Shown here: positions 1 to 13,524 of the stretch, one piece after another | How the letters are laid out: each line of letters begins with the position of its first letter | How positions within the stretch are numbered: position 1 is the first letter of the stretch | Assembly (NCBI GenBank): GCA_025041175.1 | Contig: JAKCFJ010000001.1 | Span: 1,550,001 to 1,614,000 of the forward strand | DNA from: Halobacteriales archaeon YIM A00010 | Lineage (GTDB): Archaea > Halobacteriota > Halobacteria > Halobacteriales > Haloarculaceae | Reading direction: 5' to 3' | DNA: 64,000 nucleotides | The notes under the pieces: model-generated | Told to the model about the DNA's origin: nothing | Databases searched by the model: none | The model's input: the letters and a program-made list of their open reading frames with translations, nothing else | Program-made: the position numbers and the translations under genes

Positions 1-75
1 CTCCCACCACGGGCCGTGATTGGACATTTTCGATGCTCTCTCTCCGCAATTCGGGCATTGGTCTAAGTCAGTCAT
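1..75 (-). CDS. Zinc-finger microprotein, partial (runs off left edge)
   Basis: Only the first 25 codons are in the window. The start ATG (75-73) overlaps the previous gene's TGA by the ATGA tetranucleotide, which supports both genes. The protein begins MTDLDQCPNCGERASK, a CxxC half of a zinc ribbon. Function is unknown; small zinc ribbons of this kind are common in haloviruses and may bind nucleic acid or protein partners. It is the last visible member of the minus-strand operon. Confidence 0.6.
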   Translation of the reverse strand, partial: MTDLDQCPNCGERASKMSNHGPWWE

Positions 76-173
76 TCTTTCGCTCCCATAACCACATGCC
101 AACACTGGTAGCAATACTCTTCGTACATTTCCGAGTGGATCTTTCGGGTACAATCCTTACACTCCTCACTCAT
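72..173 (-). CDS. 33-aa zinc-finger microprotein
   Basis: A complete 33-codon frame (MSEECKDCTRKIHSEMYE...) with two CxxC pairs, CKDC near residues 5-8 and CYQC near 21-24, so it could bind one zinc ion. Its ATG overlaps the end of the 107-aa gene upstream (stop at 168-166) and its TGA overlaps the start of the next gene by ATGA. Translation coupling on both sides is the main evidence that this tiny frame is real. No function can be assigned. Confidence 0.6.
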   Translation of the reverse strand: MSEECKDCTRKIHSEMYEEYCYQCWHVVMGAKE

Positions 174-489
174 CACAACCACCCCCAGAATCAACGAGTT
201 CGTCGTAGATCACCACATCTCGATGTCGGTCGGCGCGGACGCTCGCGGCATCGAGCTGTTTCGCATCGATGACGTACGAATGATACGGATCCCCATCACG
301 TCGGCACGTCCGACAGTAGTACGGCTTGTCTGTGTGTTGACTGTCACCCGCCCGCCGGATGGCCGTGTGTCCATTCGGGCAGCGATATCTCCACACCTCT
401 TTGTGGAGATCTCCGCGTGGGAGTGTGTGTACGACACACTCCGGTGGGGTGTCCACACCACGTTCGGTGGGAGAGCGGGCGCTACTCAT
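166..489 (-). CDS. Zinc-ribbon protein of the element, 107 aa
   Basis: The protein carries two zinc-binding pairs: a CPNGH segment after a basic/aromatic stretch and a CRTC pair about 20 residues later. Its C-terminus ends in an acidic and glycine-rich tail with a last cysteine. The frame stays open further upstream, but that part lies inside the neighbouring gene and has non-haloarchaeal composition, so the ATG at 489 is preferred; it overlaps the upstream gene's stop by 8 bp. It is part of the minus-strand operon. Function unknown; a nucleic-acid-binding accessory role is plausible but only inferred. Confidence 0.65.
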   Translation of the reverse strand: MSSARSPTERGVDTPPECVVHTLPRGDLHKEVWRYRCPNGHTAIRRAGDSQHTDKPYYCRTCRRDGDPYHSYVIDAKQLDAASVRADRHRDVVIYDELVDSGGGCDE

Positions 490-901
490 CGGGCTCACCC
501 CCACTCCATGCAGTCTTCGGAGAGACTGTATCACACCGCTTGCAGGTGAGTCCATCCGTCTCGGCCTCGTTGATGAACGAACAGCTCGAACACTCGGGGC
601 AGTCTGTCGACACATCCCCATCCCCGAGGTATCGCGGCGCACGTTCGGGATCGCGGAGATCGCGCTCCTCGATCCACTCGTCAACGTATGGATCCGTGCG
701 CCACACGGCCGATCGCTCTTTTGTGGGACGGGAGACACGCTCGATGATCCCCATATTCCGCAGGGGTTGTGCCAACCGGCTGTTGATGTCAGTATCCCGA
801 ATCGGCCACTCCTCGTTAGGCCGGGGGAGATCGCGGCATAGTTGGGGGTTGTTGTACAGCTTGTTGCGGATTTTTGGACTAACGGTAGTGTCCGTGCTCA
901 T
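482..901 (-). CDS. Winged-helix-like plus zinc-ribbon protein, paralog of the next gene upstream
   Basis: This 139-aa protein is acidic. Its N-terminal half (about residues 15-75) resembles a small DNA-binding helical domain and its C-terminal third holds a four-cysteine ribbon (CPEC...CKRC). It aligns along its length with the 128-aa protein encoded just upstream: both have a LP-P/H-x-EW segment, a V-W-RTD segment before the ribbon and a C-x-x-C...SPK-W ending. They are therefore tandem paralogs. The start overlaps the upstream stop by ATGA. Likely a DNA-binding regulator; the fold is inferred, not shown. Confidence 0.7.
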   Translation of the reverse strand: MSTDTTVSPKIRNKLYNNPQLCRDLPRPNEEWPIRDTDINSRLAQPLRNMGIIERVSRPTKERSAVWRTDPYVDEWIEERDLRDPERAPRYLGDGDVSTDCPECSSCSFINEAETDGLTCKRCDTVSPKTAWSGGEPDE

Positions 902-1284
902 GCACTCTCTCCCCCCTGTTTCCAGTCGTCCTTCGGGGATATCTCACCACACGCTTTACACTGTAGTCCCGCGCACCCGCGCGCGTTGGTGAAACTCCAC
1001 CGCCCGCATTCGGGGCATTGTGGGTCGTTCTCTTTGTCGTCCACGAATCGTGGATCGGGCTTCCCACCGCCGGTATCTGTCGTTTCCAGGTAGTGGTGGG
1101 CTTCCCGGTCGGTCCGCCAAACCCACGCTTTGTTTTTGCCTTTGCGCACACGGTGGATGATATCCCGCTTTGCAAGGCTCATGATCTCACTTTGAGAGAG
1201 TCCCACATTCCCCGATAACCACTCCGTATCGGGATGTGGGAGATGCCCGACCACCTCGGGGTTGGCCCGAACGTAGGCGTGCAT
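898..1284 (-). CDS. Winged-helix-like plus zinc-ribbon protein, tandem paralog
   Basis: A 128-aa protein starting MHAYVRANPEVVGHLP. The frame is open upstream of 1284, but that stretch is arginine-rich and overlaps the neighbouring gene, so this ATG is chosen. The middle contains LSQSEIMSLAKRDIIHRV, which reads like a winged-helix recognition segment, followed by a W-RTD motif and a zinc ribbon with CPEC and CKAC pairs. It is the sister of the 139-aa gene downstream, with which it shares an ATGA overlap. A tandem duplication that produced two regulators is the simplest reading. Confidence 0.7.
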   Translation of the reverse strand: MHAYVRANPEVVGHLPHPDTEWLSGNVGLSQSEIMSLAKRDIIHRVRKGKNKAWVWRTDREAHHYLETTDTGGGKPDPRFVDDKENDPQCPECGRWSFTNARGCAGLQCKACGEISPKDDWKQGGESA

Positions 1285-1292
1285 GTTCCGGT

Positions 1293-1478
1293 TCACAGGC
1301 CCACCCCCATGGCGATCAGTGGCATGGCCCCGAAGAACTGTAGGATTTGGAACGCTATCCACAGGACTACCGCGGCGATCGTCCCGAGGACGATGAGATC
1401 GATAGCGAGGCCGACCACCACGGCGATCACCACCGTTAAGACGTTCTTCACCAAACCGGCGAATTGTCGAACGCTCAC
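1293..1478 (-). CDS. Small two-helix membrane protein
   Basis: The frame encodes two hydrophobic segments, VLTVVIAVVVGLAIDLIVLG and a following AAVVLWIAFQIL stretch, so a protein with two membrane helices is likely. I choose a GTG start at 1478, because it forms a GTGA overlap with the stop codon of the PCNA-like gene, giving 61 aa. An ATG at 1517 would give 74 aa but a 43-bp overlap. The function is unknown; it sits between the clamp gene and the zinc-ribbon genes of the operon. Confidence 0.6.
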   Translation of the reverse strand: MSVRQFAGLVKNVLTVVIAVVVGLAIDLIVLGTIAAVVLWIAFQILQFFGAMPLIAMGVGL

Positions 1479-2356
1479 GAACTCCCACCCCGGTCGAGCC
1501 TTGGGGAGAGCATCCACGTCGCTAAGCCGCGATTTCCGAAGGCCTTGGCTCCGAGCGACATCGGATGGTTATCACCCATCCCCATGACGATCTCTTCGCT
1601 TTCGGTGAAGCCTCGAGCGACCCGTGAGAGAAAGTCAACGGCGAACGTCGACATGAGGGGGTCGGGAATGTCTTGGTCTCCGTCCGCACCCCCGGTGAAA
1701 CCGCCCACGATCGTGTTGGGCTCGTCTTCGGCTTCCTCCGTACTATCCGTCACGGAGAGCGAGATCTCCGAGCGGTCGTCGTCTCCGCGCCCGGAGACGT
1801 GGAAGTGATCGCCATCGAAGTGGATCGTTGCGGTGCTTGCGGCGAGTTCCACCGCCGAGATGGCTGTTTCGAGGTGATCGGTTTCGAGATTCAGGGCGGC
1901 ATCGAACTCGACGTGTTGAACATCCGGAGGTTGGGCGATCGAATCTGGAACGATTCCCGTGAGCGCGTATTCGAACGCTCCCGCCTCGATGATGATTTGC
2001 CCGTCGGAGAGCGAAAGCTCTATGAGACCATCGTTGTGCTTGGCAGCCGCCTTTGCGGAGGAGACGACCTTATCGAATCTGTCGAAGTTGATACCGATGG
2101 CTGTCGTGCCATCGACCACCTCGCCCGCCTCGCTCGAGGGGTGGTAGCGAACGGTTCCCATCAACGCAGTGGAGGGGTTCAGGCCGACCGCCCACAACTC
2201 GCTGTCGGAAACGATCAGTTTGAGTTCCTCCGCGACCGTTCGGGCGGTCGAGATGAACCAACGGAGAGCGTCGTATTCGAGCACCGCGGTGAACGGTCGC
2301 CCGGTGTTTTCCTCCGGTGGCTCGGGGGGTGACGGTGGGGTTGGCACGTCGCTCAT
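1475..2356 (-). CDS. Virus/plasmid-type PCNA-like DNA sliding clamp
   Basis: A 293-aa protein that matches the PCNA pattern in outline. An N-terminal FTAVLEYDALRWFISTARTV segment resembles the first clamp helix. LWAVGLNPSTALMGTVRY near residues 55-72 corresponds to the D-x-A/P-x-x-V-x-M strand of PCNA. The second domain repeats the alternating pattern, and the C-terminus ends in a MSLGAKAFGNRGLATWMLSPRL segment like the PCNA 'YMLAPR' end. Halophile-type acidic stretches fill the linker. Such clamps tether replicative polymerases; here it would serve the element's own primase/helicase. It overlaps both neighbours by 4 bp. Sequence is far from a typical cellular clamp. Confidence 0.82.
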   Translation of the reverse strand: MSDVPTPPSPPEPPEENTGRPFTAVLEYDALRWFISTARTVAEELKLIVSDSELWAVGLNPSTALMGTVRYHPSSEAGEVVDGTTAIGINFDRFDKVVSSAKAAAKHNDGLIELSLSDGQIIIEAGAFEYALTGIVPDSIAQPPDVQHVEFDAALNLETDHLETAISAVELAASTATIHFDGDHFHVSGRGDDDRSEISLSVTDSTEEAEDEPNTIVGGFTGGADGDQDIPDPLMSTFAVDFLSRVARGFTESEEIVMGMGDNHPMSLGAKAFGNRGLATWMLSPRLDRGGSS

Positions 2357-2517
2357 TTGAACCCCTCCACACCCGAGTTGTCGGTCGTGCCACGGCAGCC
2401 GTGGCAGTAGTACCCGTGGTACACGTCACCGCTGTAGTACCGCGAGCGCCCGCTGAATTCCGTCCTGCAATTGATACACTGTCTTCCGTTCGTGTCGCGT
2501 TGGTTGGTTTCAAACAT
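2353..2517 (-). CDS. 54-aa zinc-finger microprotein
   Basis: A short frame starting MFETNQRDTNGRQCINC. It holds two CxxC pairs (CINC near residues 14-17 and CHGC near 38-41) separated by a tyrosine-rich loop, a typical one-zinc knuckle pair. Its TGA overlaps the PCNA-like gene's ATG (ATGA), and its ATG lies inside the last codons of the C2H2 gene upstream. A copy of the element's GCAACTACCA motif ends 5 bases before this ATG. Function unknown. Confidence 0.65.
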   Translation of the reverse strand: MFETNQRDTNGRQCINCRTEFSGRSRYYSGDVYHGYYCHGCRGTTDNSGVEGFK

Positions 2518-2737
2518 CGTCTTGGTAGTTGCTTTTTGGTAGTACGATCTCCCACGAGCCGATCAGGTGGGAAAGCCGCTCTTCTTGTGAGTGTGAAGCC
2601 ACCAGATGGAGCTTCACCCCCGCTGGGTGATCGAACCACTGCCCGCAAATCGAACAGTTGGGTTTGACGGCTTCCATCTTAGCTGACTCAGTAGACTCAG
2701 CTGGCTTAGCTGTGTTAGCTGACTCAGTATCACTCAT
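2510..2737 (-). CDS. C2H2 zinc-finger protein, 75 aa
   Basis: The protein contains a canonical C2H2 finger, C-x2-C-x12-H-x4-H, in the segment starting CSICGQWF and ending VASH (about residues 28-50 from the chosen start). The N-terminus is a Ser/Thr/Glu/Ala-rich low-complexity stretch with imperfect AESTESAK-type repeats. The start at 2737 (MSDTES...) is preferred to an in-frame ATG 15 bp upstream because it gives an 8-bp overlap with the upstream gene. C2H2 fingers of this size are frequent in archaeal viruses and often act as DNA-binding regulators; that role is inferred. Confidence 0.72.
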   Translation of the reverse strand: MSDTESANTAKPAESTESAKMEAVKPNCSICGQWFDHPAGVKLHLVASHSQEERLSHLIGSWEIVLPKSNYQDDV

Positions 2738-2936
2738 CACCGAACACCTCAAGCTTCCGGTCGGCCACCCACCCGAACGCGTACCCCACGCTCACGATGG
2801 TCGAGAGGTAGAGAGCGAGCGGCGCGAGCCATGCCGGATGTGCGATCGCGGCAGCCGTGACTACCCCGGCGGACGCGATAGGCCACGTAAACGTGGCTCC
2901 GAGTAAGGTTCTGCGCAGGTGGGTTGTGGGGTTCAT
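2730..2936 (-). CDS. Small two-helix membrane protein
   Basis: A 68-aa protein with two hydrophobic segments (PIASAGVVTAAAIAHPAWLA and LALYLSTIVSVGYAFGWVA), a basic N-terminus and a short acidic C-terminal tail. That predicts two membrane helices. It overlaps the upstream gene by ATGA and the C2H2 gene by 8 bp, so it belongs to the operon. Nothing in the sequence points to a specific function. Confidence 0.65.
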   Translation of the reverse strand: MNPTTHLRRTLLGATFTWPIASAGVVTAAAIAHPAWLAPLALYLSTIVSVGYAFGWVADRKLEVFGDE

Positions 2937-3385
2937 GGTCCGCTCTCCACGTCATCGAGTATGGCCCGCTGGATGTCCTCGAAGACTTCATCCGCCTCGG
3001 TGGTGTCCGTGACATAGCCGTGGTCGGCCATCGCTTTGTTGAGAGCTGACATGCGCCGGTGGATGCCAGCCGCGCGTGTCGAGAGGGTCTCAATACACGA
3101 TTGGGCCTCATCGCCATCGGAGAGCAGGTAGTAGCCTCCGTGGTAGGAGCCAATCGGCATGTTGTACTCACAGACTAACTCCCGGATCGCCGCGCGGGTG
3201 TTCGGAGTGGAATCGAGCGTGTCGATGCCCCCGAGTGCCTCGGATAGCTCTCCCGATGTGATCGAGTTTTCTTTCCCGACATGCGCTGTCAGAACCAACG
3301 CTGTTTCAAGAAGTAGTTTGTCCTCCGCTCCGGTCGCATCGGGTACGTCGAGCGAGCGGTCTACGTCTGGGTGGTCGTCGCTCAT
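2933..3385 (-). CDS. Hypothetical acidic protein, 150 aa
   Basis: The protein starts MSDDHPDVDRSLDVP and is acidic and mostly helical. A segment with LTAHVGKENSITSGELSEALGG followed by NTRAAIRELVCEYNMPIGSY reads like a helix-turn-helix with a wing, similar to viral regulators or replication accessory proteins. The remainder (RRMSALNKAMADHGYVTDT...) may form a coiled coil. The ATG at 3385 is preferred over an ATG four codons upstream. A GCAACTACCA motif lies 30 bp upstream. It is the first gene of this part of the minus-strand operon. Function unknown. Confidence 0.6.
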   Translation of the reverse strand: MSDDHPDVDRSLDVPDATGAEDKLLLETALVLTAHVGKENSITSGELSEALGGIDTLDSTPNTRAAIRELVCEYNMPIGSYHGGYYLLSDGDEAQSCIETLSTRAAGIHRRMSALNKAMADHGYVTDTTEADEVFEDIQRAILDDVESGP

Positions 3386-3397
3386 ACGCTCCCCCAC

Positions 3398-3778
3398 CCA
3401 CGTTTTCCCGCCCGTGGTAGTTGCTTTTTCGTCATTGTTGTCTCCCTTCGGTTACCGAACGCGCATATGAACGCGCGTAAGATAACCTAAACGTTACCGA
3501 ACCATAAATCTATGGGTTCGATTTATTACCCATGTGGAACGAGCTATCGGCTATGGGGAGTTGTGAAAAGCGTTGAAATGGGGAAGCTACGTTACTACCG
3601 ATATAACGCAACCATGCACGTCGGACCGTGCAATCACAGATATGTTACGAGCGCATATGAAGGGAACGGTTCGGTTGTGTGGTGGTGGGGTGGGGGTGGT
3701 ATTCGAGAGGGGTGTATCAACAGTGGATGTTGCTGTATAACCGTAAGTATTAAGTAGATAGCAACGGTATGTGTTGAT
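3398..3778. promoter_or_regulatory. Divergent regulatory region with repeated operator-like sites
   Basis: No gene fits in these 381 bp. They separate a minus-strand operon start from a plus-strand gene. Two direct copies of GTTACCGAAC lie at 3451-3460 and 3493-3502. An ATAAC-N6-GTTAC palindrome-like site lies at 3482-3497. GCGCATATGAA occurs at 3461-3471 and again at 3651-3661, the second also next to a GTTAC. A very G-rich run lies at about 3674-3702. This layout suggests control of both directions by one regulator; the regulator is not known. Confidence 0.55.
3748..3755 (+). promoter_or_regulatory. TATA box for the 370-aa gene
   Basis: TATTAAGT lies 24-31 bp before the ATG at 3779. That spacing places the transcription start at or near the ATG, so the message is probably leaderless, as is common in haloarchaea. 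Confidence 0.5.
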
Positions 3779-4891
3779 ATGGGACGAAGCTTCCCTGCCA
3801 ACGGGGCACCGATCGGAGAACAGGAACTTGAAAACATCGCGGACTCATACGGCCACGACAGCGAAGATGTGCGCACGTTGGTCGAAATCGCACAGGAACA
3901 GATGGGCGAAATGGTGGGGATGTACTACGATGGGCAGGTTGTTGGGGAAACGGAATCGTGGCTCATCACGCTCGCAAGCCACCACTTCCGTGATGAGGTG
4001 GACGAAGCGATTCATGCGTATGAAGGCGAGGTGGGCGACCAACTTGAGGAAGATCTACCACACATCCTTTCGGAGGTTCAACACACCGCGTTCGAATCGA
4101 GTGCAGGGCAAAAGATCACTGGGTACAGTGAGCAAGAAGCCGCGAACGCGATTTCGGCCAACTACCCGCGTGTGATCCGCAAACCCGAAGACGAACGCCC
4201 AACGTTCGAGGACATCGATGTCGAGTATCGGATCCAATACGACAAAGGCTACCAAGCTCCGTATCATTTCGTCGCCCGCGCGTGGGTGACGATCTCCGGT
4301 GTGGATGGGACGCTCGTTCAACACCGAGCGGTGCGAGCCATCCCCGACGACAGCTCGGATGAACCACGCGATGAGATCGTGGTGTCGGCCGACGATTCGC
4401 ACAAGGAGAGCGATACGCTGATTGACGACTATATCAGCCGCCACTCGATCGATGATCAGCTCATGGGCGACAGCTCACTTGTGGATGAATACGACATCGG
4501 GCTTCGGTGGTGGGTTCACGAACTCATCACGGCCGATTTCCAACTGGCGTACGAATCCATCGAGGACTCGCTACCGCTGTGCGACAACTGCCGGGCGTGG
4601 CCGCATCACGCATCGGGTGTGTGGGTGGAACAACGCGACACCCACCAATTCGACCCATCGGTTCCGGATACGATGTGTAACATCTGCTACGCGCAGGTAC
4701 TCGAAGCCGAAACGAGTCTGTCGGGCCAAGAAGCCGAAGTGGCAGCCGCCATGGAATCAGCAACGTCCCATAGCGCGGTGGCTAACGCGGTGGGGGGGAT
4801 CGATGAGAACCACGTTGGCACGGTCGCCGGGCGCATCCGAGAGAAAATCGAACGCGCCCAACGCACCGACGACCTCGTGAACATCGAGTGA
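3779..4891 (+). CDS. Hypothetical element protein with a C-terminal zinc-binding region
   Basis: A 370-aa acidic protein I do not recognise. The first 150 residues are helical and acidic. The middle (about 150-185) has an alternating pattern, YRIQYDKGYQAPYHFVARAWV, suggesting beta strands. Near residues 268-305 there are two CxxC pairs, CDNC and CNIC, about 35 residues apart, which could hold zinc. The C-terminus (AVANAVGGIDENHVGTVAGRIREKIERA) looks like a small helical DNA-binding or coiled-coil segment. It is one of two plus-strand genes inserted in an otherwise minus-strand block and has its own promoter. Confidence 0.7.
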   Translation: MGRSFPANGAPIGEQELENIADSYGHDSEDVRTLVEIAQEQMGEMVGMYYDGQVVGETESWLITLASHHFRDEVDEAIHAYEGEVGDQLEEDLPHILSEVQHTAFESSAGQKITGYSEQEAANAISANYPRVIRKPEDERPTFEDIDVEYRIQYDKGYQAPYHFVARAWVTISGVDGTLVQHRAVRAIPDDSSDEPRDEIVVSADDSHKESDTLIDDYISRHSIDDQLMGDSSLVDEYDIGLRWWVHELITADFQLAYESIEDSLPLCDNCRAWPHHASGVWVEQRDTHQFDPSVPDTMCNICYAQVLEAETSLSGQEAEVAAAMESATSHSAVANAVGGIDENHVGTVAGRIREKIERAQRTDDLVNIE

Positions 4892-4921
4892 GAGAACGAA
4901 TAACGACACCAACACAAGACA

Positions 4922-5266
4922 ATGACTGACCACAACGGAGTATGCCCCGTCCCATTCGACCGGACGATCGAGACAGACATCCCGGTGTTAACCGACGACC
5001 ATGAGATCACGCTCACTGTTGGTGATGAGACGTTCAACGGCCCCGTGGTCCGGATTGATACCTACAGTGATGCGGTCGACGTGGAGCGCGTCGTACAGTT
5101 CAATGTGAGCTATAAACACCGCATCGGTGGGCCTGATTGGGAACCGTGGAAAGTCTACCTGATCGAGGAACCCCGTGGGTTCTACCGTGCCACCCTCGTG
5201 CTGTTCAACGGGGATAAATCGCTGACGCGCAACCTTGACCCCCCAGACGAGATCGCCGTTGGGTAG
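4922..5266 (+). CDS. Hypothetical protein, 114 aa
   Basis: A small acidic protein starting MTDHNGVCPVPFDRTI. It is rich in alternating hydrophobic residues (HEITLTVGDETF, VVQFNVSYKHRI, YRATLVLFNGD), so it is likely an all-beta domain. It follows the 370-aa gene by 30 bp and is probably cotranscribed. It lies next to the candidate replication origin. No function can be assigned. Confidence 0.6.
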   Translation: MTDHNGVCPVPFDRTIETDIPVLTDDHEITLTVGDETFNGPVVRIDTYSDAVDVERVVQFNVSYKHRIGGPDWEPWKVYLIEEPRGFYRATLVLFNGDKSLTRNLDPPDEIAVG

Positions 5267-5594
5267 GCACAACTACATGGCCCCTGATGGTAGCAGCCTT
5301 CTTTTATCAGCGATCGAGTAGTGTAAGAGTGGGGTGGTTGTGTTTTTTCCGGTGTGTAGTTTGGGGAAATTCTCTTATATCCATTTCTATACAACGCTGT
5401 TTCTACTGTGGGGTGGAGGTAGTTCAACTACCGATTTGGTGTTTGTGTAAGTATTCACTCACATACACTTACGTACCACGTAGTAACAACCCCAGTGAAA
5501 GTAATAGAGTTGGTAGTACCCAACGCATGAGGAGTAGTCTAACGCATGGGGGTTCTCGGTTTACTCTTTCCAAGCTATAGTACCACACGCCTTT

Positions 5595-5725
5595 GGTGTC
5601 AAGGGGTACAAGGGGGGTGATTATATTATAAAGAAGGGTCAAGGGACTAATATAGGTGACATGTATAGGGGGGTAGTAGAGGTATAATAAGATAAGCGCC
5701 GATACCCCTTGTACCCCTTGACACC
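5595..5725. other. Candidate replication origin of the element
   Basis: A perfect 21-bp inverted repeat (left arm 5595-5615, starting GGTGTCAAGGGG; right arm 5705-5725) brackets 89 bp of AT-rich DNA containing ATTATATTATAAAG and GTATAATAAGATAA. The spacer also contains a degenerate AAGGGTCAAGGGA copy of the arm. G-run-containing inverted repeats around an AT-rich unwinding region are the general form of archaeal origins. The site is immediately downstream of the helicase gene, in a 542-bp gene-free stretch (5267-5808). No Cdc6/Orc1 gene is visible in the window, so an initiator match is not shown. Confidence 0.55.
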
Positions 5726-5808
5726 CCCTTCTGTGTGATACGTTGGAGAAACTCACCGCTTTCGTTACACGAGCGGTGTGGAAAAGAAGTGGTGGTGGAG
5801 TCTACGCG

Positions 5809-7659
5809 TTAGACGACGTGGAGCTTACCGGAGTTGCGCATCACGTCTCCGCGTTCGACCGTCTTCTCAACTCCCGCCACGGCGGTGGGGGTGTCGATGC
5901 CTTTCTCGGAGAGGGTGAGCATCAACTCCCCATACTCCATCGAGCGGTGCTCCGCATCGTAGAGAGCTTTCATCACTTCGGCGGCTGCCTCGGTGGTTCC
6001 AGCATCCGAGCGGTCGGGCGTTTCGGTTTCGAATCCCGGCGCGTCCGGTCCCACGCCATCCATGCGCGATTGTTCCGTGTCTGCCTCGCTCGGTTCCTCT
6101 CCATCACGGATTTGGGCTCCGCGTTGGGACCACTGCACCCCACGATAGACAGTGACGCGGCTTGGCCCTTCCTGACGCGTCTGTCCGGTCTCGATGCGAA
6201 TGTCTGAGAAATCAAGAATGCGTTTCGAGAACGCATCGTTCGAGATGCGTGGGAGATTCTCAACGTCGCAATACCTACGGTAGGCTTCCCGAGCGTCGTC
6301 TTTCGTTACGTACGCATCATCGGCCCCGCTGTCGTCTTCGACCAAACAATCCATGGCGAACGCGTACACCGAATCACTGGCTTTTTTCATCTCCCGGCGT
6401 ACGACCGACGGTTCGGGCACATCGGGGTAGAAGATTCCTGTGTCGTCCCACCGCTGTAGCTCCTGTACGCATCGGACCAGGAGCGCAGACTTCTCTTCTG
6501 GCGTTGAGAGCGAATCGAGGAGTTCGTCCTCGGGCACGAAATCGTCATCGCTCGGGCGGAAGGTGTTCGGGAAGTTGATATATACCCACCGCCTCCAATA
6601 CCCATCAGAATCGTCGGCCGAGCGTGGGACTTCATTCACACAGAACGTCATCGTCGCGTGATTGACGAATGGGTACGTTTCCTTATATTTCGAATTCGCC
6701 GTGAGCACGTCCTTACCGCCCGTTGCTTTTTTGAACGTCTCCGTGTTCGTGAGTTCGTCCGAACCCATATCCGCGTCGATGTTTGCCAACGATCCAGCCA
6801 GTCGGCCTTCGGCCCATTGGTCGGTGGTCGATGCGATGGATTGGAGCGATTCGCCCGCCACGTTATCGTGGATCTCTCGGTTGTTGGCAATCTCTTCACC
6901 GGGGTGGAGGAACCGGCGGACGGCTGCGGAGAACGTACCCTTCCCGTTGGCCCCATCCCCCGATAACATCGCGGCTTTCGAGGACGGGTAGCCCTTGTGG
7001 AGCATGTGGGCGATCAGCCGGTACATGGTGTCCACGTCACTGGGGTTAACGATGTCCGTCAGGAACGAATCGAACTCGTCACACGTCGCGGCATCCGGAT
7101 CGTCGGGCCACTCCGCGGCGATGCGTATTTGATGTGGCTCCTCGGGGTTGTAATCCATCAACTCCCCACTCGTCACATCGAGGATCCCATTCCCCACAAC
7201 TAAGTGCGAATCTGGTGTGTTGAACCACGGTTTCGGCCGTGTGACGTAATCACGCACATTTTTCAGGACGTTATCCCGCGCGCTCGGGGAGAGAATCGCT
7301 CCACACAACCGGAGCGTTTGGGATTTGACGAATTGGTCTCCATCGGGCTTGTAGATCCCCAGCTCCGGATCGAACCTCCATAGGCACGGTCGCCATCCGT
7401 GCGTTTCCTCGGGCGGACGGATCACATTGTAGTGGTCTCCGATCGCCATGCCGATCGTGTGTATAAGCTCGCGTTGAAGGATGTCGTTGTCCTCATACTT
7501 CTCGAGCGTCCCTTTGACAGCGGGGTACAGCGGGTGTTCGTCCCACAATCCCCCCTCGAAAGCGTCACTGTCGACCGCCTCGCGTAGTTCATCACCCGTT
7601 GGTCGGTAGTCGGGTTGTTCTCCTGATGCGTCGTCTTCCGCATTGGTATCTTCTGACAT
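5809..7659 (-). CDS. D5/P4-family primase-associated helicase (SF3)
   Basis: A 616-aa protein with the layout of phage/plasmid D5-type helicases. The D5_N-like region spans about residues 60-210. The Walker A motif GDGANGKGT is at about 234-242. NIDADMGS near 290 fits the Walker B position, and an FCVNEVPRSADDSDGYWRR segment near 337-355 matches the conserved motif C/arginine region of the SF3 family. A C-terminal winged-helix-like part follows. These ring helicases unwind the element's origin. The gene follows the primase after 9 bp, and those bases are the GCAACTACCA motif. Start ATG at 7659. Confidence 0.88.
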   Translation of the reverse strand: MSEDTNAEDDASGEQPDYRPTGDELREAVDSDAFEGGLWDEHPLYPAVKGTLEKYEDNDILQRELIHTIGMAIGDHYNVIRPPEETHGWRPCLWRFDPELGIYKPDGDQFVKSQTLRLCGAILSPSARDNVLKNVRDYVTRPKPWFNTPDSHLVVGNGILDVTSGELMDYNPEEPHQIRIAAEWPDDPDAATCDEFDSFLTDIVNPSDVDTMYRLIAHMLHKGYPSSKAAMLSGDGANGKGTFSAAVRRFLHPGEEIANNREIHDNVAGESLQSIASTTDQWAEGRLAGSLANIDADMGSDELTNTETFKKATGGKDVLTANSKYKETYPFVNHATMTFCVNEVPRSADDSDGYWRRWVYINFPNTFRPSDDDFVPEDELLDSLSTPEEKSALLVRCVQELQRWDDTGIFYPDVPEPSVVRREMKKASDSVYAFAMDCLVEDDSGADDAYVTKDDAREAYRRYCDVENLPRISNDAFSKRILDFSDIRIETGQTRQEGPSRVTVYRGVQWSQRGAQIRDGEEPSEADTEQSRMDGVGPDAPGFETETPDRSDAGTTEAAAEVMKALYDAEHRSMEYGELMLTLSEKGIDTPTAVAGVEKTVERGDVMRNSGKLHVV

Positions 7660-7668
7660 TGGTAGTTG

Positions 7669-8745
7669 CTACAGCGTGAAATGGCGCGTTTTGCCATCCG
7701 TACACCGTTCGTTGCGCTTTGGGATGTCCGCTCCTCGGTCTCGCAGTTCATCGACAGCCGCCCAGTAGTCATCCCCCTTGGGGTAGTCGCCCGGCTTCGA
7801 GACAATCCCCGCCTCGAGCGCGACGATCTCGAGCGCGGAGAGTCCGATCATCCCCTGTCGGTAGACCCACCCATCATCAAATTGGCCGAGCCTCGCACCA
7901 CTTTCCGAACTCTCCCACGATGGATCAAGGTCGGCTGTCCCGTCCGGGCGCTCGTTCGTGACAGACGAGAGCAGATTGATGTCACGCGGTCGCACGGCAT
8001 CCACGGCATTGAAAATCTTCTCCGTATCGGTGGGTTGGCTTGTCTGGTCGCCTCGGGTGGGAGTTTGCCCACCACCCACCCCACCGTCTTCGATATCCGG
8101 AGTCACATCGCGCGCGTGCGCGTTGTAGATGTCGTGGATTTGCTTGGAGATGCCTGGGAGTTTCATCGGTGTGCCAGCGATGTGCTTGCCCGTCACGGCG
8201 ATGAACCTATCTTCGGCGTAGAATTCGATCTCCGGATCATCGGTGTAGGGCCAACCCCGAAGTTCGAGCACGCACGTGGATCGTTTCCCCTCGGGTAGTG
8301 ATGCGATGCCAAACCCGTGCAGGCCGGTTCCGGATGTGGAGAGCGCAACGTGTACGTCCCACGAATCGAGCAGGTGCCATGCTTGGGGGTGGATCACTCC
8401 GCGCTCGTCGCACCGCACATCATCACAGTCGATGAATACAATCCGCTCCTCACGCTGGCTGCCACTGGGCAGTTCGGGCAGGCACGTCGCTATCCCGAAC
8501 CCGAGCTTGTCGGACCAGTCGCGTGCCACCCCGAACGGCAGCCAGTTTTCGGGATCCTTCCAGGATACGTGACGGTCCAACCAGTCGGGGTAGTTCCACG
8601 GCGCGCGCGGAACCTTGCGCCCGTCGGTGTACGCCCAATTAAACCATCTGTCGAACCCCACCAACGCATTGGGGTACGTCCCATACACGATGGTGTACTG
8701 ATCCGGTCCGACCGGCTCCCGGTATACCGATTCGTCCGAAGTCAT
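7669..8745 (-). CDS. Primase-polymerase (AEP/Prim-Pol family)
   Basis: A 358-aa protein with a bifunctional primase/polymerase domain. FIDCDD near residues 104-109 gives the catalytic acidic pair. A STSGTGLHGF segment near 136-145 gives the conserved histidine motif. IEFYAEDRFIAVTG near 173-186 corresponds to the third acid and the nucleotide-binding end of the fold. The remainder is a linker and a C-terminal helical domain. It would make primers, and perhaps copy DNA, for the element together with the adjacent D5 helicase. The ATG at 8745 is chosen because it overlaps the previous stop (ATGA); the frame opens 6 codons earlier. Confidence 0.85.
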   Translation of the reverse strand: MTSDESVYREPVGPDQYTIVYGTYPNALVGFDRWFNWAYTDGRKVPRAPWNYPDWLDRHVSWKDPENWLPFGVARDWSDKLGFGIATCLPELPSGSQREERIVFIDCDDVRCDERGVIHPQAWHLLDSWDVHVALSTSGTGLHGFGIASLPEGKRSTCVLELRGWPYTDDPEIEFYAEDRFIAVTGKHIAGTPMKLPGISKQIHDIYNAHARDVTPDIEDGGVGGGQTPTRGDQTSQPTDTEKIFNAVDAVRPRDINLLSSVTNERPDGTADLDPSWESSESGARLGQFDDGWVYRQGMIGLSALEIVALEAGIVSKPGDYPKGDDYWAAVDELRDRGADIPKRNERCTDGKTRHFTL

Positions 8746-8972
8746 CGGATAACCCCGGCACATTTATACCCATCGCCACCCTCACATCGAATGGAAAGCG
8801 TGAGAGCGTTTTTCCGCCTATCGCGGTTTGGTATCCCGCGAATAAGGTAGTTGCTAACCGGCGAGCGTGGTTCACTCCACCTCGCCGGCATTCCTATAAT
8901 TCGTGACTGTGCAGTTTCTCTCCGGGGGAGAGCGGCCTGTCTCCGCCGTGGTATCGTTGTTTGAGCGTCCAT
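8742..8972 (-). CDS. Small basic protein, 76 aa, first gene of the replication operon
   Basis: The frame starts MDAQTTIPRRRQAALPRR and is rich in arginine and proline, unusual for a haloarchaeal protein, so composition alone would argue against it. Two facts argue for it: its TGA overlaps the primase ATG by ATGA, and its own ATG is directly preceded by the GCAACTACCA motif seen before other genes of this element. A TATA-like TTTTATGTAG on the minus strand around 9030-9040 would start transcription about 35 bp upstream. A basic DNA-binding role is possible but not shown. Confidence 0.45.
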   Translation of the reverse strand: MDAQTTIPRRRQAALPRRETAQSRIIGMPARWSEPRSPVSNYLIRGIPNRDRRKNALTLSIRCEGGDGYKCAGVIR

Positions 8973-9047
8973 GGTAGTTGCTTCCCCTCGCACCGCAAGT
9001 TTGCGTTACCCACTACCACCCAGTCCTACATAAAACCCTCGGAGAAA

Positions 9048-9063
9048 GTAACCGATATGTTAC
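9048..9063. promoter_or_regulatory. Operator-like palindrome GTAAC-N6-GTTAC
   Basis: GTAAC (9048-9052) and GTTAC (9059-9063) face each other across CGATAT. The site sits between the divergent promoters of the replication operon and the coiled-coil gene. A similar site occurs at 3482-3497 and a longer version outside the element at 14352-14374, so one regulator family may read all three. Confidence 0.5.
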
Positions 9064-9107
9064 TAACCTTCCGATTCGGGAAGTGGTACCACATCAAATA
9101 CCGATGA

Positions 9108-9114
9108 TTATATA
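9108..9114 (+). promoter_or_regulatory. TATA box for the coiled-coil gene
   Basis: TTATATA lies about 30 bp before the ATG at 9142. It is only 4-10 bp from an earlier in-frame ATG at 9118, too close for initiation there, so it decides the start. Confidence 0.5.
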
Positions 9115-9141
9115 CATATGTGTTACGTAGAGGCTCGTGTG

Positions 9142-9621
9142 ATGGGGAAGCAAGCGAGCAATTCGGATGGTGGTAACATTATCGTTTCTGATGGGGACGG
9201 ATCGGGCAGCTCATCGGATGAGGAAAACACAGATAGGTTCGAATCGTTAAAAGAATGGTACGAATCCGACACGGAAGGCCCGGACCGGCGTAAGATCGGA
9301 ACGAAACCATCAGCTCCGATTTGGCAGGCATTTAAGAATTATGTCGAAGCCGAACACGGAATGTCCCACGGAGTGACGGCTATAGAACTCGATGCGGCGT
9401 TGTTGGATCGGATGGGAGAGTCCCGAGAGGGCGCGCTCATCGATCGTGTGGGAGAGGTGGAGACGCATCTCGGTGAAGCATCGGAGCGTCTCGGTGAAAC
9501 TGAGACCAAGCTCGGTGAAACCGAGAATCGTCTCGGAGATCTCGACAACAAACTCGATACGGTCATGCGAATGCAGAACATGATACTCGAGGAGCTTGAG
9601 GGAACCGACCACTCCGGTTAG
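9142..9621 (+). CDS. Coiled-coil protein of the element, 159 aa
   Basis: The N-terminal 45 residues are low-complexity Gly/Ser/Asp/Glu. The middle, with RRKIGTKPSAPIWQAFKNYV, may be a ribbon-helix-helix or short DNA-binding segment. The C-terminal half is a regular coiled coil built from near-repeats of the form LGE-x-E-x-(R/K)LG (about residues 105-145). That pattern implies oligomerisation. The frame opens at 9118, but the TATA box position favours the ATG at 9142. Similar short coiled-coil proteins in haloarchaeal plasmids and viruses are often regulators or partition accessories; this is only a suggestion. Confidence 0.65.
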   Translation: MGKQASNSDGGNIIVSDGDGSGSSSDEENTDRFESLKEWYESDTEGPDRRKIGTKPSAPIWQAFKNYVEAEHGMSHGVTAIELDAALLDRMGESREGALIDRVGEVETHLGEASERLGETETKLGETENRLGDLDNKLDTVMRMQNMILEELEGTDHSG

Positions 9622-9897
9622 ACCCGACCTCCTTTTCATCTCAGAATAATGTCCCGGAGCGGCGCATGGGGAAGCATCGTGCACTCCGGGAGTTACTAAT
9701 TCGCACTCAAACCAGAAGTATCCTGTGGGCGAATGTCACACTGCCAATGTTACTTATACGTTCCACTTCCACAGCCGAAAGGAGTTTATACGTTATATTT
9801 ATGTCCGCCCGTCTCCTATATGAGATTGAAACGGCCCTCCGAGCGAGCACGCCACTAATCCGACAGCGGTGAAAGGCCGTCCCTAACAGTGACTTCA

Positions 9898-10437
9898 ATG
9901 TCAACAGAATACGACGTTTCCACCCTGGATTCGAAGGCTATCCACATCACGGATCGTGATTTGATCGGAGCGGAAGATGTCTGCTGGAATTGCTTCGCGT
10001 TGATCCGCGAAGAGCGTGAGACTCCGAGTGAGGACTACCTACTCGGCCGAGAGCATTGGTACGGTGGGAAACGTCCCGTTCGCTCGAAGGTTCACATCCC
10101 CCCTGCTGGCGCAAAGCCCACGCGGTCGACCGAGATGGGCTACCCGGCGCAAAACCGAGCGGCCCAACCCGGAACGCTGTTCTGTGAGTGTGGCATGTCG
10201 GGCGCGTTTGCCCGGTATCGCCATCCGTGGTCGTGTGAGGACGATTTCCTCGATCTCCTCGATCGTGCGTTGGCTACACTGGCTGCCAAGGGCGTCGAAT
10301 TCAACGCGCCATCAGCTCGCAACGAAGCTCTTGAAGCCGCTCGGGAAGGCTTCACATGGCCTGATTTCTCGGCGGATGAAGCCATACAAATCGGTATCGC
10401 CTACGGAATCGGCGTTTCCGAATGCGAAGATGACTAA
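9898..10437 (+). CDS. Hypothetical element protein with CxxC pairs
   Basis: A 179-aa acidic protein starting MSTEYDVSTLDSK; an in-frame GTG 9 bp upstream is an alternative start. It has CWNC near residues 29-32 and CECG near 96-99, roughly 65 residues apart, with many tryptophan, tyrosine and proline residues between, so a zinc-stabilised domain is likely. The C-terminal part (DDFLDLLDRALATLAAKGVEF) is helical. The upstream 276 bp (9622-9897) hold no gene but carry an AT-rich TTTATACGTTATATTTATG run that could be a promoter. Function unknown. Confidence 0.65.
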   Translation: MSTEYDVSTLDSKAIHITDRDLIGAEDVCWNCFALIREERETPSEDYLLGREHWYGGKRPVRSKVHIPPAGAKPTRSTEMGYPAQNRAAQPGTLFCECGMSGAFARYRHPWSCEDDFLDLLDRALATLAAKGVEFNAPSARNEALEAAREGFTWPDFSADEAIQIGIAYGIGVSECEDD

Positions 10438-10585
10438 ATATACATACGATATCGAGAGCGAACATATCTGTCCGCGGTGTGGTGTCGCGGTGGATAGGGA
10501 GGTATCGTGGTGCTATAACTGTGGGTTCAAGCCCCACTCCCTCCACAACAACGCGGAGGGTAACGCACTCCCCTCCCCTTGGTGA
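10430..10585 (+). CDS. 51-aa zinc-ribbon microprotein
   Basis: Starts MTKYTYDIESEHICPRCG and overlaps the end of the 179-aa gene by 8 bp. It contains CPRC and CYNC pairs about 14 residues apart, the spacing of a rubredoxin-like zinc ribbon. The C-terminus is short and histidine/asparagine-rich. It matches the style of the other microproteins in the element. Function unknown. Confidence 0.6.
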   Translation: MTKYTYDIESEHICPRCGVAVDREVSWCYNCGFKPHSLHNNAEGNALPSPW

Positions 10586-10678
10586 TGGCAGGCCGGGTCA
10601 CGGCACTATCACCACGTTGGGACCTGCTTCCCCCACTGTCTCCCATCATCACATCAGTTCCCAACGGCTTTTTCAGTA

Positions 10679-10777
10679 CTACGGTTCAGTCGCCGCTCCA
10701 CAATCGAGACATAGGGTGATATCACCTTTGCCCTGTTTCGTATTCCGACTACCACACTCGCCACATTCTTTTCCCAT
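10679..10777 (-). CDS. 32-aa zinc-ribbon microprotein
   Basis: Starts MGKECGECGSRNTKQ, with CGEC near residues 5-8 and CLDC near 23-26, a complete minimal zinc ribbon. It lies 2 bp after the stop of the 72-aa gene on the same strand, so the two are likely cotranscribed. Very small; support comes from the cysteine spacing and operon position. Confidence 0.5.
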   Translation of the reverse strand: MGKECGECGSRNTKQGKGDITLCLDCGAATEP

Positions 10778-10779
10778 AT

Positions 10780-10998
10780 TCACTTTCGCTTATATTTCCT
10801 CGTTCTAACGCGTTTCGGTTCCTCCAAGATCGTTTTCCGAATGTTGTTCACATCGTCATCGGATACCTCAACCAAGGTGGTCATCTTAGGAGCGTCGATG
10901 TGCAGGTACGTGCGCCCATCTCCCCCCACCACAAATTCGATCTCGGTCAACGTTTCCTTTGTATTCGCTTCCCCACTTGGTTCACCTGTTTCAGACAT
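10780..10998 (-). CDS. Hypothetical protein, 72 aa
   Basis: An acidic N-terminus (MSETGEPSGEANTKE) is followed by a compact alternating domain (TEIEFVVGGDGRTYLHIDAP, TLVEVSDDDVNNIRKTIL) and a basic tail ending KYKRK. The pattern suggests a small alpha/beta protein with a basic, possibly DNA-contacting, end. AT-rich TATAATAA at 11012-11019 may be its promoter. Function unknown. Confidence 0.55.
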   Translation of the reverse strand: MSETGEPSGEANTKETLTEIEFVVGGDGRTYLHIDAPKMTTLVEVSDDDVNNIRKTILEEPKRVRTRKYKRK

Positions 10999-11145
10999 GC
11001 CTGAGTGTCGCTATAATAACTGAACTATCAAAAAGTTTTCCGTGTTGTTCGATCACACATGGCGACATTCGGCCATTCGGCCGTGAGCGTATATATACGG
11101 CGCATCCAGCAGATAGCAGCAACCTTTCAATAAAACAATCACACC

Positions 11146-11793
11146 ATGACTAACGACTGTGGAGCGACGAACCGGAACGGCAACCCGTGCAGTCTCTCCG
11201 CCGGTTGGGGCACGGACCACAACGGCGAAGGGCGGTGTAAGTTCCACGGTGGTGCTACAAGCGGTGGTGCTCGTGAGGGAGCGGGCGCACCCAAGGGCAA
11301 CGACAACGCGGCGACCCATCGGCTGAACTCCAATCCATCGCTGCTCTACGAGAATCTCGAGGAGTCACGCCAAGACATCGTTGATGAACTGCGTGATTCG
11401 ATCGTGGATCAGTTGGCCGAGCGGTGGGGTGGCCTCGAGTCCGTCCCTGCCACGCACGTCCGACAGGCCCGCCGAATCGCCATGAACATGCTCAAGGTGA
11501 CTGTCCTCGCGGAGGAGTGGCAGGCCAAACAGGCTGAGGAGAGCGGCAACCCACTCATGGAGCGAGAGACTCGCACGTCTGAGCAGGGCCACGAATTCGA
11601 TGTGGATGTTCCGAGCAAGGTCGAATCCATCGCCGGCGATCTCTCGAGAGAGAACCGGATGTGGCTCAAAGACATGGGCATTCTCGGCTCTCCGGAGGAG
11701 CAACAGGCCGACGCGGCGAGTGAGGTAGCAGCCGCGTGGGAAGACGCGGCTGCTCAGTGGAGAATGAAGCGCGTCGAGAACGAGCAGGCGTAG
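11146..11793 (+). CDS. HGGxSTG-type protein, terminase-small-subunit-like
   Basis: A 215-aa protein. The N-terminus has CGATNRNGNPC, then a CKFHGGATSGG segment near residues 31-41. That is the cysteine/histidine motif found in phage proteins annotated as HGGxSTG domain or small terminase-like. It is followed by GAGAPKGNDNAATH, a sequence typical of the linker in small terminases. The rest is helical with an acidic C-terminus. In tailed viruses the small terminase binds packaging sites; a large subunit is not seen here, so the role is uncertain. TATATATACG at about 11091 could be the promoter. Confidence 0.65.
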   Translation: MTNDCGATNRNGNPCSLSAGWGTDHNGEGRCKFHGGATSGGAREGAGAPKGNDNAATHRLNSNPSLLYENLEESRQDIVDELRDSIVDQLAERWGGLESVPATHVRQARRIAMNMLKVTVLAEEWQAKQAEESGNPLMERETRTSEQGHEFDVDVPSKVESIAGDLSRENRMWLKDMGILGSPEEQQADAASEVAAAWEDAAAQWRMKRVENEQA

Positions 11794-11989
11794 GTAGACC
11801 GAATTCGAGAGGGGTGGTCATGCACGACCATGCCCGGATGGTCGCATACCGACATCGAGACGACGAAATTCTGACACCCCTCAATCCGTGGAACCGTTGG
11901 GTAGTCGCTTTCAGTTTATTCAATCCTTGCACTTCACCCCACTCAATTCATGAGATTATCCAATATTAAACCTTGTGCTATGTGATCGG

Positions 11990-13093
11990 TTATCCCATCC
12001 GACTGAGTGCCTCGCGGCGGTCCTCCGCCGGCGTTTGGTCGTATTTCATGGTGGTCGTCTCGGATCGATGGCGCAGTTGGGCTTTCGCTGCGGCCAAGCC
12101 CTCTTCTCGAGCCATATACGTTCCGACCGAATGACGGATCATGTACCAGCTCACCTCGCGCTCGGAGCGCTCGATGCCGGCCACGTCGAAGAGTGATTTC
12201 AGCAGGTATGCGAGCGAGTTCGAGGAGTAGGGATTTGCCTCCCGAGTCAACCAGATGGCGTCCGATCCATCGTAGACATCGTACAGCTCACGCTCCTCGA
12301 GCCAGCGATCGAGGGCTTCGGCCGTCCGGTCAGTGAGTGAGACAACCCAGTTATCCGAGTTCTTCGAACTCTCCGCCTCGGGAATTCGGAGCACTCGGTT
12401 GGCAACATCGACCCACCCGATTCGTGAGCGTTCGACCTCCACCGGTCGCAGGCCGGTATCGAGCGATGTCCAGACGAGCGAGGGGATTTTCCAACCATTG
12501 GCGCGCTTGAAGTCCTCGCTCGATATAGCGGCTTTTGGTTTATCGAAGCGTTGGGAGAGTTCGGTTTTCCACTCCTCCCGTTCGTCGGCATCAAGGCCCC
12601 CATATGCAGGCACAGAACCGTATTCGAGAGCGGCGTTCCGTATCGCTGTCCTCTCTTCTCGAGTCAGAAAATCGCGGGGGTTCACCCCAGATTGGGAGGA
12701 AAAGGACAGCTCCGGATTCCACTCGATGTTCATGCCTCGCTCGGCATTCATCCATTTGAATAGGCGTTTGACGGCCTTCTGTTCGTTGGCGAGGTAATTC
12801 TTCGAGTAATCTTCATCCGACATCACACAGGAGCGCATGTACTCGCTCGCATCGCCGGCATCGGGAGCGGTCGTATACCCGCTGTCGGACCACAGAAACC
12901 GCATGAAGCGATCGGTTCGAACGCTGGTTTGTCGGACGGTCTCACGGGCATACCCCTCTCCATGCGATGGGTCTTTGCCCATCGACTGAAGCCAACTGAT
13001 GAACTCCTCTTTGAACGCGCGATAGTCGACTTTCTCGCGCTCCCCGAGGGAATCAACGGTTGGCTCAGTCACCACAACAACCCGCCGTGTCAT
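11990..13093 (-). CDS. Tyrosine recombinase / integrase of the element
   Basis: A 367-aa site-specific recombinase. The N-terminal part (about residues 20-130) is a SAM-like core-binding domain. The catalytic domain shows an arginine in SLDTGLRPVEVERS (about 215-228), an R-H pair in WYMIRHSVGTYM (about 315-326), an H-R pair in AQLRHRSETTTM and a tyrosine nucleophile in MKYDQTP near 350. The usual first histidine of the HxxR box appears to be tyrosine (YMIR). The gene starts 160 bp from the 3' end of tRNA-Glu and reads away from it, the usual arrangement for an element integrated in a tRNA gene. Confidence 0.9.
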   Translation of the reverse strand: MTRRVVVVTEPTVDSLGEREKVDYRAFKEEFISWLQSMGKDPSHGEGYARETVRQTSVRTDRFMRFLWSDSGYTTAPDAGDASEYMRSCVMSDEDYSKNYLANEQKAVKRLFKWMNAERGMNIEWNPELSFSSQSGVNPRDFLTREERTAIRNAALEYGSVPAYGGLDADEREEWKTELSQRFDKPKAAISSEDFKRANGWKIPSLVWTSLDTGLRPVEVERSRIGWVDVANRVLRIPEAESSKNSDNWVVSLTDRTAEALDRWLEERELYDVYDGSDAIWLTREANPYSSNSLAYLLKSLFDVAGIERSEREVSWYMIRHSVGTYMAREEGLAAAKAQLRHRSETTTMKYDQTPAEDRREALSRMG

Positions 13094-13252
13094 GGTCTAC
13101 CCCCACAAAAGTTGAAGTGGGCCTGATAGGTTACTCTAATCGCTGTACAGCAGTAGTGTGGGCATTTGCCACCCCACCGTGTGGGCCTGAAGTCCATGTT
13201 GCATTCACTCCTGTTTAACGTTGGAATGTACACCACGGAAGCAAGATACCCA

Positions 13253-13327
13253 TGCTCGGTACGGGATTTGAACCCGTGTCGCAGGCTCGAAAGGCCCGCA
13301 TGATTGGCCGGGCTACACCAACCGAGC
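13253..13327 (-). tRNA. tRNA-Glu (anticodon TTC)
   Basis: Read on the minus strand, the 75 bases start GCTCGGT and end ACCGAGC plus A, giving a perfect 7-bp acceptor stem. The T arm is ACGGG-TTCAAAT-CCCGT. The anticodon stem CGGGC/GCCTG holds the loop CTTTCGA, so the anticodon is TTC (glutamate). CCA is not encoded. Its 3' end faces the integrase, making it the likely attachment site. Confidence 0.93.
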
Positions 13328-13524
13328 GTAACTGTACATCTGCCCCGGTCATTAATAAGCGCTGTCTTTCACTCCCACCTTTTTGATCCGCCACCTTTTT
13401 TCCACTCGGGTAGCTGCGCTACCCTCGCGCAAAAAACGTGGGCGAAAAAAAGCCGCTCGCTACGCTCGCGGTGAGCGTACTCACATACCGCTCCGCTACC
13501 GTACTGCGACCGCTACCGTCCCCG

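Follow-up and report, generated by a model that had tools for sequence, protein, structure and literature searches.

A putative replication origin with inward-facing 9-bp iteron pairs beside the D5-type helicase gene of a haloarchaeal tailed provirus

Results

Genomic context of the inverted repeat

The window analysed here is a 64,000-nt stretch of Halobacteriales archaeon YIM A00010 (contig JAKCFJ010000001.1, positions 1,550,001 to 1,614,000). Near its left end, a 542-bp stretch (5267-5808) separates two convergent genes, one at 4922-5266 on the forward strand and the other at 5809-7659 on the reverse strand, which encodes a D5-type SF3 helicase of 616 aa identified by Pfam, PHROG and predicted structure. 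Two open frames within the stretch overlap the putative origin region, one of 97 aa (5287-5580, forward strand) and one of 95 aa (5469-5756, reverse strand). The helicase gene is adjoined by the gene of a primase-like protein of 364 aa (7669-8763, reverse strand), which matched PHROG DNA primase families and had no Pfam match.

These genes are carried by a tailed provirus integrated in tRNA-Glu. A repeat match of 48 bp of the tRNA-Glu 3' end formed attR (13253-13300), and the other copy, attL, was located 38 kb to the left of the window, which gave the provirus a length of 51.3 kb. In addition to the helicase and the primase-like protein, it encodes large and small terminase subunits, portal, head morphogenesis and tape-measure proteins, a sliding clamp and an integrase; the PCNA-like sliding clamp (1475-2356, reverse strand), the terminase small subunit-like protein (11146-11793, forward strand) and the tyrosine integrase (11990-13093, reverse strand) lie in the window. 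Megablast of positions 1-9000 gave no phage match. In the Rfam scan of positions 1-14000 the tRNA alone attained the gathering score, by which a structured RNA at the repeat was rejected. The earlier note on this DNA had seen no Cdc6/Orc1 gene in the part of the element shown, and our results agreed: the genome contained 13 Cdc6_C matches, all of them outside the provirus.

Structure of the inverted repeat

Positions 5595-5615 and 5705-5725 form the 21-nt arms of an inverted repeat, 100% complementary and separated by 89 nt, as the earlier note had described, and the site is located 83 bp beyond the stop codon of the helicase gene. It was the longest inverted repeat in the 542-bp stretch, where 1000 dinucleotide shuffles gave no more than 12 nt, and it also exceeded the inverted repeats of up to 14 nt found in 60 shuffles of the 13.25-kb element part of the window. 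The repeat is therefore real and beyond chance. The arm pair occupies a single site, with no other place in the 5.97-Mb genome at three or fewer mismatches.

Each arm contains a tandem pair of 9-bp units, which had been overlooked in the earlier note. Read inward from either side, an arm consists of GGT, then GTCAAGGGG, then TACAAGGGG. The left arm (forward strand) carries iteron 1, GTCAAGGGG (5598-5606), and iteron 2, TACAAGGGG (5607-5615), while the right arm (reverse strand) carries iteron 3, TACAAGGGG (5705-5713), and iteron 4, GTCAAGGGG (5714-5722), so that all four point inward. The partial third copy of the arm seen earlier was found again as GTCAAGGGA at 5638-5646 on the forward strand, a partial iteron with one mismatch to the unit. 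The sequence between the arms (5616-5704), a putative unwinding region, had an AT content of 62%, compared with 54% in the intergenic stretch and 43% in the element part of the window. GC skew showed no turning point at the inverted repeat.

The helicase and its predicted winged helix

The helicase, which we propose as the initiator, scored above the Pfam cut-offs for D5_N (29.7 bits, cut-off 22.4) and DUF5906 (52.8 bits, cut-off 27.6) and below the cut-off for Pox_D5 (14.5 versus 21.4 bits), and it also matched PHROG DNA primase families. Its best solved sequence relative was 7ola ("DNA primase"), with an E value of 2e-36 for a profile from five relatives. Scanning of the genome contig collection with the helicase protein yielded no confirmed relative, and a single-sequence scan of the viral contig collection yielded none.

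Since the model of the full-length helicase was poor (mean pLDDT 46.1), the C-terminus alone was used for the fold comparison. The model of residues 420-616 (mean pLDDT 74.5) contained two winged helices. The first of them, which is Pox_D5-like and spans approximately residues 425-521, was predicted to resemble the RFX DNA-binding domains 1dp7 (Z 9.5) and 8zjr (Z 9.6) as well as the P4 origin-binding domain 1ka8 (Z 9.0, 2.4 Å, 85 residues aligned), the last score being shared by many other winged helices among the fold matches. Since a Z of about 9 is common among winged helices, the predicted fold speaks for DNA binding and agrees with a P4-type domain without proving one. The helicase thus has a predicted winged-helix domain at its C-terminus that could bind an origin. 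The tail domain of African swine fever C962R, the P4 origin-binding domain and RFX1 are described as alike in the available part of a published study (PMC10516667). The second predicted winged helix (approximately residues 550-616) was like those of Rpa2, cullin and MCM, and was unnecessary for the P4 comparison.

The same design beside related helicases

The design recurred beside related helicases. A first set of 47 loci comprised 45 haloarchaeal genome loci found with the helicase or D5_N, the virus HRTV-DL1 and the window itself. The 600-bp windows flanking the helicase contained 25 inverted repeats with a score of at least 13; the shuffle average was 8 to 9. The best internal period was 9 in 13 of these 25 strong inverted repeats (mean 2.05 and maximum 9 in 2000 arm shuffles). 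A joint signature, with an inverted-repeat score of at least 12, a loop of 30-130 and an internal period of 8-10, was present in 16 of 91 helicase-adjacent windows; of 579 control windows, taken next to different genes of these loci, 4 had it. Its thresholds were fixed after the first set had been viewed. Two of the four control positives (L094 and L100) resemble real sites of their elements. Counted per locus, 16 of the 47 had the signature within 600 bp of the helicase and 31 lacked the strict form within that distance. Such a lack is weak evidence, because pRN1, pHEN7 and P4, the origins of which are known, also fail the strict detector. The control-matched detector missed the site of L149, too, which appeared with looser loop bounds. 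Ten of the 16 signatures were downstream of the helicase, and upstream ones occurred as well. The earlier note had suggested a search for the arm near Prim-Pol/D5 genes of other elements; the exact arm was absent from IMG/VR, and the same design built of other units was found at these loci.

Sets gathered after the 9-bp idea had formed gave the signature at 3 of 6 loci from IMG/VR, at 7 of 23 additional loci from haloarchaea and at 7 of 27 from plasmids or phages; of these last matches, L130 (loop 41) and L140 (loop 36), both with lag 8, look doubtful. Two additional copies of a G405 helicase were excluded from these counts and from the period scan described below; contig C4 of G405 carries three copies of one helicase (L172, L190 and L192) at intervals of about 16.35 kb, which could reflect a plasmid multimer or an assembly artefact. 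The core length across sites had a median of 68 and a range of 36-110. A period scan without the inverted-repeat condition found lag 9 in 28 of 129 case windows and 63 of 569 control windows, an excess that is modest because coding DNA likewise raises multiples of 3. Nothing comparable was seen in most of the sampled D5 phages, whether from Actinobacteria or from other bacteria. Streptomyces phage Abt2graduatex2 (L141) has, at 343 bp upstream of its DNA primase gene, a very long, imperfect inverted repeat (score 59, loop 57) in which 9-bp units are not clear; it is perhaps another kind of origin.

Units nearly identical to those of the window were found in IMG/VR viruses (TGTCACGGG and TGTCAGAGG) and in G406 (TGTCAGGGG). 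In relatives with some of the closest helicases, the pairs downstream of the helicase were GTGTCACGG-GCGTCACGGG in L149 (helicase 38%), GTGTCAGAG-GCGTCAGGGG in L150 (37%), GTCCAGGCA-GTCCAGGCAG in L148 (33%) and TGTCCTGAC-TGTCCTGAC in the virus HRTV-DL1 (37.5%). Reading of G406 (39%) showed TGTCATAGG-CGTCAGGGG opposite TGTCAGGGG-TGTCAGGGG, also downstream, in arms that are unequal. Upstream of the helicase, G435 (37%) has a pair at about 1.4 kb, G460 (37%) a pair of weaker period at about 0.5 kb, G132 (40%) degenerate units and G121 (38%), by eye, a one-way array of 9-bp units directly adjacent to the gene; G209 (33%) had no clear site. The statistics leave out G406, G121, G132 and G435: the window detector had failed on them, and they came to light by reading or in a scan of the whole locus. 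The parts of the HRTV-DL1 and archaeal primase papers at hand (PMC10544981, PMC5862659) describe no origin of the paired-iteron kind.

Several sites had further features. The cores of L149, L150 and L148 share a G+C-rich word (CTATCGC..CGCGCGAGG type) beside the left arm, which is possibly a site of a further protein and which the window does not have. In L022, about seven 9-bp units (GCGTCC(G/A)GT type; about 7510-7590) form a one-way array directly upstream of the helicase, in place of opposed pairs. Longer outer inverted repeats surround or extend the iteron pairs in L194 (about 12070-12300, about 30 nt) and downstream of the helicase in L149 (score 54), and some origins of this kind thus seem to be nested.

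The units of 28 elements, phased by expectation-maximisation, gave a consensus of approximately GGGTGTCC with 6.09 bits, compared with 4.28±0.17 in 60 position shuffles. In 22 non-redundant elements the motif was centred on TGTC, read inward, with 6.06 bits as against 4.55±0.19 in 100 shuffles; the arms were hand-picked from detected sites, which may inflate this signal. Random strand flips of the 22-element units reached at most 5.23 bits in 40 flips, which implied that the units face inward consistently. Iteron similarity did not follow winged-helix similarity significantly in a Mantel test of 26 elements (rho 0.06, p 0.24; partial -0.01), two of the 28 having been dropped since a contig end cut the C-terminus of their helicase. 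Despite this overall result, close element pairs tend to agree in both.

Discussion

The inverted repeat is very probably a replication origin of the tailed provirus, in which inward 9-bp iteron pairs would be bound by the winged helix of the helicase and the AT-rich core would melt. We infer this origin activity from the sequence and its setting, and the site is most likely of the theta type. We also infer the steps of binding, melting, loading and direction in the following model. Through its C-terminal winged helix, the D5-type SF3 helicase would bind the paired 9-bp iterons, so that two helicase assemblies, probably hexamers, would face each other across the AT-rich core. ATP-driven melting would then open this core and load the assemblies, the adjoining primase-like protein would lay primers, and the viral sliding clamp together with the host polymerase would extend them both ways. 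The candidate origin proposed in the earlier note thus stands as the best-supported reading of the site, and so does recognition by the helicase rather than by Cdc6/Orc1, given that none of the 13 Cdc6_C matches falls in the provirus.

Haloarchaeal ORB elements contain G-runs, and the earlier note had likened the arms to such boxes. This likeness was not supported: the ORB core motif was no more frequent in the window than expected by chance and was absent near the inverted repeat. By sequence, the G-runs of the arms belong to 9-bp iterons of the type found beside D5/P4-type helicases. Repeats around an AT-rich region are also a feature of the haloarchaeal chromosomal oriC, with ORB and Cdc6/Orc1, in the accessible part of the literature (PMC4010727). 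Unlike that oriC, the site has no ORB-like match near it and lies in a provirus without Cdc6/Orc1, and an ORB/Cdc6 origin was rejected.

The arms could instead form a cruciform or stem-loop of which the shape, and not the iteron sequence, is read, as Berkner et al. propose for pRN1. The single strand of the site did fold better than all of 200 dinucleotide shuffles (z -4.12). In the available part of the pRN1 study, restoring symmetry rescued a stem mutation that had abolished replication (PMC4234260), and pRN2, pDL10 and pSSVx have good stems with a 9-bp period that by our measure is weak or absent. We consider recognition of shape unlikely, however. Pairing does not require a 9-bp tandem repeat inside the arm, yet such a repeat was present in the 13 of 25 strong inverted repeats mentioned above; by eye, 9-bp units occurred without matching arms in G121, as a one-orientation array, and in G406, with its unequal arms; and the common TGTC motif and the fixed orientation are features of sequence.

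Paired inverted operators are common, and with the two open frames in the stretch the repeat might be read as repressor operators for the helicase operon or for an unrecognised small gene. Such a regulatory role is very improbable, since both flanking genes end at the 542-bp stretch and neither has its promoter at the repeat; moreover, the design lay mostly downstream of the helicase in the first set, next to neighbours of many kinds. The convergent genes and three short terminator-like matches in 4900-6100 would suit a transcription terminator, which the earlier note had named as a finding that would speak against an origin. This fits poorly and is highly improbable: none of the three matches, which were sought as short-loop G+C-rich hairpins followed by a T run, overlaps the repeat, an 89-nt loop makes no intrinsic terminator, and relatives carry the design upstream of the helicase too. 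In pRN1, according to the part of the study at hand, the putative terminator is a separate small stem-loop and is dispensable (PMC4234260). The 21-bp arms, perfect and 89 bp apart, could also be the terminal inverted repeats of a miniature transposable element of 131 bp, but this is scarcely credible for a sequence that is single-copy in the 5.97-Mb genome, has no exact arm match in IMG/VR, shows by eye no target duplication in its flanks and contains tandem units within its arms; a mobile element was rejected.

An origin bound by the helicase would provide a concrete, small origin candidate for haloarchaeal tailed viruses and proviruses that have their own helicase and no Cdc6/Orc1, with a possible use in virus-based vectors for haloarchaea. 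No description of an origin of a haloarchaeal tailed virus was found in the literature searched.

Among known systems, the self-loading D5-like helicases of Staphylococcus, SaPI Rep and SCCmec Cch2, resemble the helicase of the provirus in that, as far as the available text goes, they bind iterons through their C-terminus; the iterons that the C-terminal domain of Cch2 recognises are located directly downstream of the Cch2 gene, and SaPI origins are likewise placed (PMC7581432). The SCCmec iterons, compared here by description, differ in being three in number and 5 nt long (AAGTG), with inverted repeats that are dispensable for binding in the same partial source (PMC7581432). Plasmids of the Lactobacillus group have GTTCCATAA-GTTCCAA or TATCCATAA-TATCCAAC pairs 65-84 bp beyond the helicase gene, and Salinibacter pSR11 has GTAACACAG pairs 6 bp beyond it.

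The site is very probably an origin of the P4/pRN1 kind, and the D5 helicase of the provirus probably binds it. In phage P4, crr, which is annotated as required in cis, is located directly downstream of alpha, the primase-helicase gene, and its type 1 repeats (TGTTCACAC-TGTTCACC) start 9 bp apart (4314/4323 and 4494/4503), with inverted copies 18 bp apart. The site shares with P4 a D5/P4-family SF3 helicase encoded beside it, an AT-rich core flanked by two opposed groups of tandem iterons with a spacing of about 9 bp, and a predicted C-terminal match to the P4 origin-binding domain. In contrast to the site described here, P4 has a separate ori besides crr, a doubled crr block and a fused primase, of bacterial type in the part of the source at hand (PMC4234260), whereas the provirus has separate genes for the helicase and the primase-like protein, and arms that are perfect 21-mers.

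The likeness to pRN1 of Sulfolobus extends to dimensions. Both have a stem of about 20 nt and a loop of 50-90 nt just downstream of the rep gene, with arm, loop and distance past the rep stop of 21, 58 and 53 in pRN1 versus 21, 89 and 83 here, and the D5_N, DUF5906 and Pox_D5 domains also occur in the pRN1 rep protein ORF904. The difference is that ORF904 combines Prim-Pol, SF3 helicase and winged helix in a single polypeptide, where the provirus has two genes for the primase-like protein and the helicase. A 100-bp stem-loop just downstream of orf904 is necessary and, when relocated, sufficient to restore replication of pRN1, and the available part of that study states that an iteron structure is absent and describes the binding motifs of the replication protein as not yet identified (PMC4234260). 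Our reading of the pRN1 record differs from a stem-loop without iterons: its arms, TTATGTCCATAGTGTCCAACT, consist of two 9-bp units, TGTCCATAG-TGTCCAACT, around a loop of 58. Within the family, pHEN7 has TGTCACCAC-TGTCACAAC, and pRN2 has GGACCGATA-GGACAGGAA in part.

We tentatively propose, as an idea that falls somewhat short of an even call, that D5/P4-helicase replicons of archaea and bacteria share one old origin design, with inward 9-bp pairs of the TGTC type, an AT-rich core of about 70 bp and a P4-type winged helix, in which the letters drift fast while period, orientation and place persist. In the literature searched we found no statement that the stem-loop origins and the iteron origins of these helicases follow a single inward 9-bp design. 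If it is true, haloarchaeal tailed viruses would use paired-iteron origins too, and the pRN1 "stem-loop" would be an iteron origin, its perfect stem being a by-product of mirror-image iteron pairs; for the pRN1 binding motifs, it offers an answer at the level of sequence, namely 9-bp units, tandem and inward. The origin kind of P4 and pRN1 is already known, and the haloarchaeal provirus site would be new as a member of it; if this is correct, crenarchaeal plasmids with their stem-loops and P4-like elements with their iterons have origins of one kind.
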